Made by a program: the position numbers and the translations under genes. From positions 7,386,501 through 7,450,500 of the forward strand of contig NZ_AP024745.1 of NCBI RefSeq assembly GCF_019704555.1: DNA of 64,000 bases, given 5' to 3'. How positions within the stretch are numbered: position 1 is the first letter of the stretch; the number at the start of each line of letters is the position of its first letter. Under the pieces are notes generated by a model. That model saw only the letters and a program-made list of their open reading frames with translations. It did not search any database and was not told the DNA's origin. Origin of the DNA: Actinoplanes sp. L3-i22 (GTDB taxonomy: Bacteria > Actinomycetota > Actinomycetes > Mycobacteriales > Micromonosporaceae). Shown piece after piece: positions 41,447 to 44,761 of this stretch.

Positions 41447-41782
41447 ATGACCACCACCGAGGACGAAACCTGGGTGCCCGAGGCGTGCACCCTGCCGACC
41501 GCCGAGCGTCCGCTGCGGCTGGCCGAGTTCGACGACCTGTTCACCACCGCGCTGCGCGACCAGCGGCGGATGTCCGCCACGGCGCTGCGGTGGGACCTCG
41601 ATCCGGCGGCCGAGGCCCTGGCCCGGGACCTGACCCGGCGCGAGAGCGGCTGCTGCTCGTTCTTCACCTTCACCTTCCACCCCGGCGACGGGGTGCTGAG
41701 GCTGGACATCGAGGTCCCGGCGGCGCAGGTCGCGGTCCTCGACGCACTCGGCGCGCGCGCCGCCGCGGGGCTCCGGCCGTGA
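41447..41782 (+). CDS. Small protein with vicinal cysteines, first gene of a MerR operon
   Basis: 111 residues; function not recognised. It contains ESGCCSFFTFTF, a vicinal Cys pair followed by an aromatic strand, and LDIEVPAAQVAVLDAL. Cysteine pairs of this type bind soft metals. It is found at the head of a transcript with MerR (GTGA overlap at 41779) and a MerT-like membrane protein, so a role in binding or handing on Hg or a similar metal is inferred from context only. Confidence 0.7.
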   Translation: MTTTEDETWVPEACTLPTAERPLRLAEFDDLFTTALRDQRRMSATALRWDLDPAAEALARDLTRRESGCCSFFTFTFHPGDGVLRLDIEVPAAQVAVLDALGARAAAGLRP

Positions 41783-42294
41783 CCGGGCTCCGCAGCGGCC
41801 AGGTCGCCGACGCGGCCGGGGTGAACCTGCAGACCCTGCGCTACTACGAACGTCGCGGCCTGCTGGCCGAGCCGGACCGCAGCCTCGGCGGGCACCGGCT
41901 CTACCCGGCCGAGACGGTGACCGTCCTGAAGGTGATCAAGGCAGCGCAGCGGCTCGGGTTCACCCTGGACGAGGTCGCCGACCTGCTCACCGCCGGCGGC
42001 CATCGGCACGGCACCCCGGACGCCGGCCTCCAGCAACGGGCCCGGGAGAAACTCACCGAGGTGGAGACGAGGATCGCCGACCTCCAGGTGATCGCCGCAA
42101 CCCTGCGCGCCGCGGTCGCCGCGGGCTGCGACGACCTGATCACCTGCGCCGGCGAGCCCTGCTGCCCGATCCCGTTCGCCACCATCGCCTCGAACCCACC
42201 CGCCGCCTCCACCCCACCCGTCGCCTCCACCCCGCCTGTCGCCTCCACCCCGCCTGTCGCCGCCGAAGGAGCACCCGATGCCGACTCTCGCTGA
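41779..42294 (+). CDS. MerR-family heavy-metal regulator
   Basis: 171 residues. The winged helix is VADAAGVNLQTLRYYERRG followed by GGHRLYPAETVTVLKVIKAA. After the dimerisation coil come GCDDLITC and GEPCCPIPFATI; these C-terminal cysteines fit the actinobacterial mercury-type MerR metal site. The last 30 residues are an unusual ASTPPV tandem repeat encoded by 18-bp DNA repeats. It is translationally coupled to the gene before it and overlaps the next by 17 bp. It probably activates the MerR-type promoter at 41409. Confidence 0.88.
   Translation: MTGLRSGQVADAAGVNLQTLRYYERRGLLAEPDRSLGGHRLYPAETVTVLKVIKAAQRLGFTLDEVADLLTAGGHRHGTPDAGLQQRAREKLTEVETRIADLQVIAATLRAAVAAGCDDLITCAGEPCCPIPFATIASNPPAASTPPVASTPPVASTPPVAAEGAPDADSR
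42187..42258 (+). repeat. Four 18-bp tandem repeats in the MerR C-terminus
   Basis: Units at 42187, 42205, 42223 and 42241. The last two are identical, the second differs at two positions and the first is degenerate. They encode ASNPPA, ASTPPV, ASTPPV, ASTPPV. A length-variable, probably disordered tail. Confidence 0.8.
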
Positions 42295-42541
42295 CCGGTT
42301 ACGCCGCCTGCTGCCGTCCGGCCTGACCGGCCTGGCCGGGATCGCCTGCGCCGCCTGTTGCGTGCTGCCGATGCTGCTGGCCGCCGGGGCACTGTCCGGC
42401 GCGGGCTGGGCGGCGGCCGGAAACTGGATGCCCGGCATCGCCGTCGCCCTCGCGGCCGGAGCGGGTGCCGCCTGGTGGTGGGCGGCGCGCCGCCGGCACC
42501 GCACCGCCTGCGCGGGTGGTGGCTGCACCTGCGGCACCTGA
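42278..42541 (+). CDS. MerT-like small mercury-transport-type membrane protein
   Basis: 87 residues with two TM helices. The first helix has the vicinal pair ACAACCVLPMLLAAG, matching the Cys-Cys in TM1 of mercuric transport proteins (MerT/MerC). A second cysteine cluster, CAGGGCTC, ends the cytosolic tail. AAGGAG precedes the ATG. Such proteins carry Hg(II) inward for reduction by MerA, but no merA is seen here. The metal is inferred from the Cys pattern and the MerR neighbour. Confidence 0.72.
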   Translation: MPTLADRLRRLLPSGLTGLAGIACAACCVLPMLLAAGALSGAGWAAAGNWMPGIAVALAAGAGAAWWWAARRRHRTACAGGGCTCGT

Positions 42542-42600
42542 CCTCGGCAACGGCGGCCGACCCGGCGGCGGTTCGCGGGTGCACGTCAGGTGACTGAGTT

Positions 42601-44299
42601 GTTGGTCATTACTGGCCGCTGTCGAACGGATGTACTATTCGCCGGGTGACAACGAGGCGGCGGAGGAAGGCGTTGCGGCCGATCGCGGCGCCGTTCGTCG
42701 TCGCCCCGCCTGCGGGCACCCGCATCCGGACGAGGCTGCGGCCCAGCACCGGGGAGGCTGCTGTCCTGACACAGGTCGCAACCTTTTTGGGTGGGCTGTA
42801 CCGGGCTGATCTGGCCAGGCGTGTCCAGCTCGGCAACGTGTCCGGCAAGGACACCCAGCGCACGCGACGTAAGCGGGAGTTGACCGCGGTCACGACCTCC
42901 CGGTGGGCCGGCTCGATCACCCGGACCGCCGAAGACCAATACCAACTCGGGATCCGGGCGCTCAAAGCCGATGTGTCGAGCCTGGGCCAGGCCCTGATTA
43001 CCTTGGACGCGCGGATCGCCGCCCCGGTCGGCGGCCGGGCCGGCCGGACATCCGGTTATGCCAGCCGGCGCGAGCGGGCCGCCAAGCAGCAGCGCCGCCA
43101 AGTCCTCGCTGCCCGCCGGACCGCAGCACAAAACCGATTGGCTGCCGGTCGTCCGGCGATCGTTGCGGGCGGACGGCGGCTGGCCAAGACCCGCCACCGG
43201 CTCGGCAGCGCCGGGCTCACCCAGGCGCAGTGGCGGGCCCGGTGGGACGCGGCCCGCATGTTCCTGACCGCCGACGGCGAGACCGGTGCCCCGCACGGCA
43301 ACTACACGATCACCGTCACGCCCGACGGCATCGTGTCAATCGCCCTGCCCGCCCCGCTCACGCATCTGGCGAACGCCGGACGCGGGCGATACCGGCTCAC
43401 CGAACCGGTCGCGTTCACGCATCGGGCCGGGCAGTGGGCCGACCGGGTCGCCGCCGACCGGTCGGTGCGTTACGACATCAGCTTCGATGCGGTGCGGGGC
43501 CGCTGGTACCTGGACGCTTCCTGGACAGTTCCGGCCTACACGCCAGGCCTGGACGCGCTCGCCGGCGGCAGGCTACTGGGTATCGACCTGAACGCGGATC
43601 ATCTTGCCGCGCATGTCATCGACGCGCACGGCAACCCGGTCGGCACCCCGATCACCATCCCGCTCAACCTTTCCGGCCCGGCTTCGCAACGCGACGGACG
43701 GCTGCGTGCCGCGATCAGCCACGCTCTGCACCTGGCCGAACAGCATGACTGCCCGGCGATTGCGGTCGAGAACCTGGGCTTCGCCGACGCCCGTGCCACC
43801 GGCCGGGAGACCATGGGCCGCGGTGCGCGGGGCAAGCGGTTCCGGCGCGCGGTCGCCGGGATCCCCACCGCACAGTTCCGCGACCGTCTCGCCGGCATGG
43901 CCTCCACCGCCGGGATCGCGGTGATCGCTGTCGACCCGGCCTACACCTCCAGGTGGGGCGGGCAGCACTGGAAACCCGCCCTAGCAACGAAGACTTCCAC
44001 CGCGACCCGGCATCACGCCGCGGCGGTGGTGATCGCACGACGCGCCCACGGCTTCAAGGCGCGGCGACGGTCAGGTGTCACCCGGACACGACCAGCGGAT
44101 CGTGCCCGGGAAACTACCGGCCAGGCCGCACCCCACACCATGGGCGTCAGGGAACAACAGTTCGGGCTGGTCGAGACGGCACGCACCACACCCGTGGGCA
44201 AGACGCGCCCGGCCCCGACCAGAGACCCCGGCGTTCCCCGGCCTCGAAGACCGTTCGCGAGGCCCCCGACCCCCGGTCGGGACCAACGCATTGACCAAC
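42601..44299 (+). mobile_element. Putative TnpB-like element with imperfect terminal inverted repeats
   Basis: GTTGGTCATT (42601-42610) and its inverted copy ATTGACCAAC (44290-44299, 9 of 10) bracket the TnpB-like gene. Before the right end there is a perfect 7-bp hairpin (44265-44271 with 44275-44281, CCC loop), of the kind found at IS605-type right ends and omega-RNA scaffolds. No tnpA (Y1 transposase) is present, and no obvious target duplication. Boundaries are tentative. Confidence 0.4.
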
Positions 44300-44316
44300 T
44301 ATGGCCAATACGCTGA
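42646..44316 (+). CDS. TnpB-like RuvC-fold protein lacking the zinc finger
   Basis: 556 residues. RuvC-I is GGRLLGIDLNADHLAAHVID (first Asp), RuvC-II is CPAIAVENLGF (catalytic Glu), then VIAVDPAYTSRWGGQHW. Where TnpB has CxxC...CxxC and the third acidic motif DxNAA, this protein has no Cys pairs and reads TATRHHAAAVVIARRAHG: the RuvC-III Asp is not visible. N-terminal 200 residues are basic and helical; the last 90 residues are Arg/Pro-rich and may be non-coding overlap with a 3' RNA. TACTAT (42631-42636) lies 9 bases before the GTG start, suggesting leaderless expression. It is a transposon-encoded or domesticated RNA-guided-type protein; nuclease activity is doubtful. Confidence 0.75.
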   Translation: MTTRRRRKALRPIAAPFVVAPPAGTRIRTRLRPSTGEAAVLTQVATFLGGLYRADLARRVQLGNVSGKDTQRTRRKRELTAVTTSRWAGSITRTAEDQYQLGIRALKADVSSLGQALITLDARIAAPVGGRAGRTSGYASRRERAAKQQRRQVLAARRTAAQNRLAAGRPAIVAGGRRLAKTRHRLGSAGLTQAQWRARWDAARMFLTADGETGAPHGNYTITVTPDGIVSIALPAPLTHLANAGRGRYRLTEPVAFTHRAGQWADRVAADRSVRYDISFDAVRGRWYLDASWTVPAYTPGLDALAGGRLLGIDLNADHLAAHVIDAHGNPVGTPITIPLNLSGPASQRDGRLRAAISHALHLAEQHDCPAIAVENLGFADARATGRETMGRGARGKRFRRAVAGIPTAQFRDRLAGMASTAGIAVIAVDPAYTSRWGGQHWKPALATKTSTATRHHAAAVVIARRAHGFKARRRSGVTRTRPADRARETTGQAAPHTMGVREQQFGLVETARTTPVGKTRPAPTRDPGVPRPRRPFARPPTPGRDQRIDQLWPIR

Positions 44317-44323
44317 GGAACGG

Positions 44324-44761
44324 TCAGTCCGGGGTCATGTCGTATTCGTCGACGTCCAGGACCGCTCCGGTGGCCTGGAGGAAGTCGAGCACCGCACGCC
44401 CGAGATGCCAGCCGAACAGATTCGAGGTGTCGCCGCGACCGTCCTCGTTGAAGTAGCGCACGACTTCCAGGACGGCGCCGCCTCCGTCCTCCTCGGCGCC
44501 CAACCGGCCGACCAGCGCGGCGATCGCCGCGGTGTGCGGCCCGAGCCGTTCGACGATGTGGGCGACCTGCTCGTCGACGCTCAGCCCCGGCTCGCGGCAG
44601 ACCACCCGCCAACAGTGCCGGACCGGAACGACCTTGGGTTCGGTGCGACGGCTGCCACGGACGGTGATCTCGTCGGGCTCGATGCCGAGAACGGCCGCCA
44701 TCTCCGCCGCCGAGATGCCGCGACTGAACAGCCCGAAGTAGGCATACTGACTGACCTGCAC
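44324..44761 (-). CDS. DUF4279-family protein
   Basis: 145 residues from a GTG. QYAYFGLFSRGISAAEMAAV and LGIEPDEITVRGSRRTEP, with later LEVVRYFNEDG, fit DUF4279, a small family found near toxin or immunity genes but without known activity. A TATCCT hexamer just upstream and no ribosome site suggest leaderless expression. It converges on the TnpB-like gene, 7 bp away, and is divergent from the SMP-30-like gene. Confidence 0.72.
   Translation of the reverse strand: MQVSQYAYFGLFSRGISAAEMAAVLGIEPDEITVRGSRRTEPKVVPVRHCWRVVCREPGLSVDEQVAHIVERLGPHTAAIAALVGRLGAEEDGGGAVLEVVRYFNEDGRGDTSNLFGWHLGRAVLDFLQATGAVLDVDEYDMTPD

Follow-up and report, generated by a model that had tools for sequence, protein, structure and literature searches.

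We analyzed a 64,000-nucleotide stretch of the Actinoplanes sp. L3-i22 genome (contig NZ_AP024745.1, positions 7,386,501 to 7,450,500; hereafter the window) and studied a tnpB-like open reading frame (ORF) that is the only recognized gene of a repeated element. With a probability of roughly 0.7, we read the element as mobile, tnpA-less, and derived from IS607, its product as a TnpB nuclease guided by RNA, from an actinobacterial lineage that lacks the zinc finger and has Asp, Glu, and His (D-E-H) as its RuvC site, and the element as retained by the cutting of the empty GGGT-target. Computation showed the protein fold and residue pattern, where the element ends, an empty site, and the scaffold structure; we infer transcription, processing, cleavage, the His ligand, the sparing of the element's own site, and mobilization in trans.

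A TnpB-Like Protein with His at the RuvC-III Asp Position

The ORF starts with GTG and encodes 556 amino acids (aa), of which approximately residues 20 to 476 are folded. An earlier annotation made by a model from the letters alone (the sequence-only reading) had called the same frame, 42646–44316, and rightly recognized the RuvC-I motif GIDLN and the RuvC-II motif VENLGF, which contain D314 and E375. The RuvC domain of the protein ends with TRHHAAAVVIARR, and most of the Arg/Pro-rich tail (approximately residues 477 to 556) has a pLDDT of 33 to 45 in the structure model. The model and its structural alignment showed the fold common to Cas12f and TnpB, as expected of a TnpB in the broad sense, the transposon-borne ancestor of Cas12. 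The curated cut-offs were not reached for PF07282 (19.1 vs. 26.3 bits) or NF040570 (38.4 vs. 100 bits). Searching PDB sequences with the single protein (phmmer) gave no match up to an E-value of 1, while the family profile gave seven weak matches (best E-value 0.015), including one whose name indicates an unrelated protein. The protein search returned 4953 relatives among 7995 scored candidates; among viral contigs, none of 37 pattern matches was a relative by tblastn.

Zinc-binding Cys pairs are missing from the protein, as had been noticed before, and none is conserved across 241 aligned proteins, so that there is no CCCC zinc finger. In Typical or Derived TnpBs, the RuvC-III Asp lies in DRDxN or NADxN (PMC10278001). 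Here, the position is taken by His in all 241 aligned proteins. The sequence-only reading had seen DxNAA replaced by RHHAAAVV; RuvC-III is indeed altered, with the correction that H456, not R455, stands at the Asp position. One row of the other alignment has Arg, His is found in 92 of 92 loci, and position 457 is free among the aligned relatives. As the protein alignments comprised the best 120 relatives per list and the loci the best 80 of 560 confirmed plus those of the own genome and the genus, the constancy of H456 holds for nearer relatives only.

With profiles trimmed to the RuvC part, a local hhalign alignment placed H456 against the Asp of DxNAA (E-value 3.9e-6, probability 87%); global alignment of the full-length profiles gave a meaningless result of four columns. 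Since the per-column confidence was low at the last helix, we added a register test, in which the H456-to-Asp register was the best of 18 with the catalytic column included or not. The range ends of the structural alignments indicated residue 456 for Thermus thermophilus (Tth) and Escherichia coli RuvC. There are precedents for His in this role: the third active-site residue of Thermus and Deinococcus RuvC is His and the Thermus enzyme is active (PMC3834835), and in Cas9, H983 was modeled as a ligand of metal A and the H983A change weakened the enzyme (PMC8112549). The D314–E375–H456 protein is most likely an active, perhaps slowed, nuclease, with H456 presumably serving as a metal ligand.

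Copies, Ends, and an Empty Site

The genome, a single contig of 12.0 Mb, contains five intact copies of the element including the window copy, the others showing 91–93% protein identity. Copy L007 has a 2-base insertion close to the end of the tail, and two further copies (L014 and L015) have frameshifts between the RuvC motifs and right ends (REs) that are still intact. A relative with 48% identity at 8.42 Mb (L012) carries RHEAA at RuvC-III and falls on a sister branch. Within the genus, matches were found in 4 of 60 genomes, our own included and one being a fragment with two stops, which makes the distribution patchy.

For the comparison of loci, we used the seven own copies, L012, four loci from genomes of the genus (L020, L021, L023, and L024; the fragment L022 was excluded), and the 80 best of 560 confirmed loci, 92 in total. 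The tree contained 89 of these (L014, L035, and L047 did not pass the length filter); the position of the broken copy L015 in it is a long-branch artifact. In 4 of the 48 loci of the H type and in 13 of the 44 others, we found no GAACGG with a pairing loop. The scaffold alignment retained 41 of the 48 H-type loci, leaving out two duplicates and five without a recognized RE; L044 was kept, with an RE that is probably wrong.

DNA identity among the seven near-copies extends from approximately the GGGT at 42577–42580 to the end of GAACGGT at 44324, and the flanks are unrelated. The left junction reads GGGT in five of the six own copies with a usable left end (LE) and CGGT in L006; the seventh, L005, has its left end truncated or replaced around locus position 1475 and its ORF and RE intact. 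We found the exact empty site of L015 in two relatives (L130 and L131), which are 94–96% identical across the join and have GGGT joined to the right flank (GCCGCC-GGGT-TCGGGG). The more distant L142 and L146 (73–75%) are also element-free at this site, but the sequence there is not GGGT. The empty-site search gave no match spanning the join for the window copy, L015 being the only copy for which we found an empty site.

A first LE profile, from five own copies, scored L026 below its own background (−5.6 vs. −4.6). With the second profile, from the same five own copies and four relatives picked after the results of the first, L026 scored 32.0 bits where its local background was 5.6. Outside the set used for building this profile, L026, L037, and L036 (3 of 81 loci) scored more than 20 bits over background, all with GGG before the left end and T at its start; the left end of L026 lies just upstream of tnpA. 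As only 39 of the 81 loci exceeded background at all, the left end is unrecognized in most loci.

IS607-Type Junctions Without tnpA

Both junctions have GG. Of the 75 loci (of 92) having GAACGG and a pairing loop, 72 continue with T, the bases after it being mixed; insertion at GG with a fixed right-flanking base is the IS607 pattern. ISXfa1 has its crossover at GG and a fixed base on the right flank that forms part of the scaffold, with depletion of GGG motifs (PMC10711439). Judged by its letters, the junction pattern of the window element is the one described for ISXfa1.

No serine-recombinase TnpA lies in this copy, and tnpA had been correctly reported as absent beside the ORF. The sequence-only reading had named abundant, near-identical copies with tnpA in related genomes as an observation that would count against it: near-identical copies do exist in the own genome, but without tnpA, which stands beside some of the more distant relatives. 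Searching with one query and E-values up to 1e-3, we found that 16 of the 92 loci have a same-strand match to an IS607-type serine recombinase upstream; these loci lie on both main branches of the tree, and none is one of the seven own copies. The whole genome has no Y1 transposase (PF01797) and four IS607-type TnpA matches, one over the cut-off (4.16 Mb, beside another TnpB) and three weak ones. The element, which lacks tnpA, is probably IS607-derived and would be mobilized in trans by a serine recombinase, for which the TnpA at 4.16 Mb is a candidate. That locus (L003/L016, 4.164–4.166 Mb) has the IS607-type TnpA, at 114.9 bits, near a TnpB with Cys pairs and DRDFSAA.

A Predicted Guide-RNA Scaffold at the 3′ End

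Among the seven own copies, the variable sites at the three codon positions number 56/41/140 in codons 1–476 and 7/9/9 in codons 477–556. The tail lacks the excess at third positions (Fisher P = 0.034) and varies less overall (P = 0.016). In the alignment of the 48 H-type loci, which come from several actinobacterial families, conservation continues through the tail and ends at AGGAACGGT; in the 44 loci of other types, it likewise ends at the right end.

Upstream of the conserved right end lies a hairpin with the loop ACCGTTCG, the 7-bp stem of which, GGCCTCG/CGAGGCC, overlaps the Arg/Pro-rich tail as had been read from the letters. In 41 sequences, the stem showed 68 cells with two-sided changes against a shuffle mean of 22.6 (a level that none of 500 shuffles reached; slid controls gave no more than 11), and the number of paired cells and the covariation score were above all shuffles. 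The pairing of the loop with GAACGGT has one mismatch in five of the seven own copies and none in the window copy. Folding of 44068–44346 was moderately above shuffled stability (z −2.38), in a minimum-energy fold that cannot show a pseudoknot, and a search of 42400–44500 against Rfam gave two matches up to an E-value of 1, both far below the gathering scores. The first 16 nucleotides of the predicted guide of the window copy occur once exactly in the genome, in the copy's own flank; two sites have one mismatch, neither preceded by GGGT. A pseudoknot adjacent to the guide is known for ISDra2 (PMC10097598) and is required for the activity of ISXfa1 (PMC10711439). The computation supports the 3′ end of the element's transcript being a guide-RNA scaffold, as the sequence-only reading had suggested for the tail and hairpin, with the guide taken from the right flank; the codon-position pattern, the conserved end, and the covarying hairpin all point this way. 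L020 (genome G055) and L054 (Actinoplanes couchii) do not differ from each other over the stretch used; the scaffold of these two loci is unlike that of the rest of the family.

Table 1. Features of the element in the window
Feature	Position	Strand	Evidence
GGGT, left junction: putative target-adjacent motif; last GG, likely IS607-type crossover dinucleotide	42577..42580	+	Own copies, empty sites
Left end (LE); starts at T of GGGT if crossover is at GG	42580..42622	+	Copy identity stops; LE profile
tnpB-like ORF, 556 aa, folded at ~20–476	42646..44316	+	Sequence, relatives search, structure model
RuvC-I Asp D314 (GIDLN)	43585..43587	+	Asp in 240/241 aligned proteins
RuvC-II Glu E375 (VENLGF)	43768..43770	+	Glu in 241/241 aligned proteins
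H456, His at RuvC-III Asp position	44011..44013	+	His in 241/241 aligned proteins
Disordered Arg/Pro-rich C-terminal tail over predicted guide-RNA scaffold	44074..44316	+	pLDDT, codon-position variation
Scaffold hairpin 1, GGCCTCG/CGAGGCC around AAG-ACCGTTC-G	44240..44264	+	5/5 tested pairs with two-sided changes
Loop ACCGTTC, 5′ half of predicted pseudoknot	44250..44256	+	98.2% of cells pair with 44318–44324, 41 sequences
GAACGGT, 3′ half of predicted pseudoknot and right end (RE); final T, fixed right-flanking base	44318..44324	+	Conservation ends there
Predicted guide segment, host flank, length inferred	44325..44344	+	Unshared flank directly after RE

Upstream of the element, at 41485–42541 of the window, are ORFs that resemble, by eye, a MerR-type regulator and, after it, a small Cys-containing membrane protein.

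Proposed Mechanism and Its Alternatives

In the mechanism that we propose, the 3′ end of the transcript would fold as a scaffold and the right flank would be read as a guide. Loss of the element, or an empty allele, would restore the GGGT-target, which would then be cut and repaired from the element-bearing copy, so that the element persists in the population. Where the site is occupied, it would mostly be spared because CGGT, the end of GAACGGT, precedes the target there, in contrast to GGGT at the empty site (five of six copies).

A number of observations weigh against this interpretation. The RuvC and Cas9 precedents are inexact because their further Asp would correspond to A459 here. In Tth RuvC, the residue in question is D146. 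In Cas9, it is D986 (PMC8112549). Cas12m2, with a His-Asp-Asp site, does not cleave double-stranded DNA, although there it is the first Asp and the Glu that are replaced, unlike here (PMC10442227). At the last helix, the per-column confidence of the profile alignment is 0–2 on the HH-suite scale of 0–9, and the ungapped range ends place D371 of ISFba1 TnpB (PMC11061315) at residue 457. In the scaffold, two of the five covariation measures were not above shuffles: the count of pairs with two-sided changes was equaled or exceeded in 308 of 500 shuffles, and that of further pair types in 43. The pseudoknot helix shows no covariation because both of its sides are nearly invariant, and among the 40 sequences that have letters at this place, 5 carry a C–A mismatch, including four of the six distinct own copies entered. 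The sole IS607-type TnpA over the cut-off in the genome adjoins a different TnpB, and some of the upstream TnpAs are short remnants. Finally, the GGGT motif comes from few junctions, of which one in six is CGGT (L006), and the occupied site of L006 would not be spared by the above logic.

We consider it unlikely that the protein is a catalytically weakened or dead TnpB, binding under RNA guidance without cutting as TldR or Cas12m do, with the His holding a single metal or the nontarget strand. The canonical third Asp is missing, Cas12m2 with its HDD site keeps metal-dependent DNA binding and loses cleavage (PMC10442227), and the H143D change raises the activity of Tth RuvC, so that the His may be a slower residue (PMC3834835). 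Against this stand the retention of D314, E375, and H456 across a large mobile family and the multicopy, patchy occurrence of the element; a guide from a random copy flank would provide no stable regulatory target, and the predicted guide of the window copy has its sole exact site in its own flank, the one-mismatch sites lacking GGGT. The nuclease-dead, domesticated repressor suggested by the sequence-only reading is disfavored because D314 is kept in 240 and E375 in all 241 aligned proteins, the His is invariant, and the element is multicopy and sharp-ended with an exact empty site. TldR-type regulators have lost RuvC catalytic residues as well as mobility. The other option of that reading, a separate TnpB lineage with altered RuvC-III and without zinc finger, agrees with the alignments, the tree, and the loci of the relatives.

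A third ligand elsewhere, at D430 (in VDPAYTS) or another conserved acidic residue, would give a D-E-D site with a moved Asp, which we regard as improbable. Among the aligned proteins, Asp stands at 430 in 120 of 121 and 119 of 120, and Glu at 388 in 120 of 121 and 120 of 120. We ranked D430 low as a replacement because Asn takes its place in L048 and L089, both of which keep H456, and because AsCas12f shares the same Asp (DPqYTSQ in the alignment). AsCas12f has its own canonical third Asp besides this one. In the structure model, D430 follows the end of a strand, off the last helix, and E388 is within the low-confidence loop 383–389. An IS200/IS605 element with single-strand Y1 transposition and ends processed by an HUH transposase is least probable: many relatives are labeled IS200/IS605 accessory proteins in their sources and palindromic stretches are seen by eye near both ends, but the genome has no Y1_Tnp (the search for Y1 genes covered the genome, not the 92 loci), serine recombinases lie upstream in 16 of these loci, and the junctions have GG and a fixed right-flanking T.

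Returning to the D-E-H nuclease, its activity would mean that the RuvC site of TnpB and Cas12 tolerates His as the third residue and dispenses with the zinc finger, would indicate a lineage whose target motif is rich in GG, and would provide a natural series, constant at 456 and free at 457, for the effect of the third residue on cutting rate and strand choice. If the protein is inactive, mobile DNA would be maintaining an abundant RNA-guided binder, a situation that would be harder to explain. More tentatively, and with the odds against it, a large TnpB branch of actinobacteria may have swapped its third catalytic Asp for His, recreating the Asp-Glu-His metal site of Deinococcus–Thermus RuvC without the fourth carboxylate, and may retain its elements with an RNA-guided nuclease that is deliberately slow or strand-biased (nicking).

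Comparison with Known Systems

TnpB (OMEGA) nucleases such as those of ISDra2 and ISFba1 differ from the present protein, which has no CCCC zinc finger, has His for the third Asp, and scores below the cut-offs of PF07282 and NF040570. Cas12f1 (AsCas12f1) is a CRISPR effector outside a transposon, with a DED site and a zinc finger. In ISDra2 TnpB, the CCCC zinc finger lies between RuvC-II and RuvC-III (PMC10097598). The element resembles ISXfa1 in the likely GG crossover, the fixed right-flanking scaffold nucleotide, the GGG motif, and the predicted pseudoknot (PMC10711439), and is unlike it in the lack of tnpA in the window copy, which has the D-E-H site. An atypical RuvC-III is shared with RIII-r4 of the "RuvC-III rearranged" TnpBs, compared here by description only; RIII-r4 is a major clade, the authors warn against presuming inactivity, and the 59 TnpB orthologues sampled from all clades are 353–550 aa long (PMC10278001). 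The RNA-guided, noncleaving TldR and Cas12m are likewise related to TnpB and have a changed RuvC site. In Cas12m2, the RuvC-I residue is His and the RuvC-II residue is Asp (PMC10442227), in contrast to the canonical D314 and E375 and the mobile element found here.

The first three active-site residues of T. thermophilus and Deinococcus radiodurans RuvC are Asp-Glu-His, as in our protein, and the RuvC domain aligned over 136–141 residues; these enzymes are Holliday-junction resolvases without a guide RNA. They also have a fourth acidic residue, unlike here. In E. coli RuvC, this is D141 (PMC3834835). In the open-licence literature searched, which leaves the main TnpB census outside it, we found no description of a D-E-H TnpB. 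TnpB, 3′ scaffolds, and IS607 types are already known, and what our analysis adds to them is the D-E-H assignment with a constant position 456 next to a free 457.
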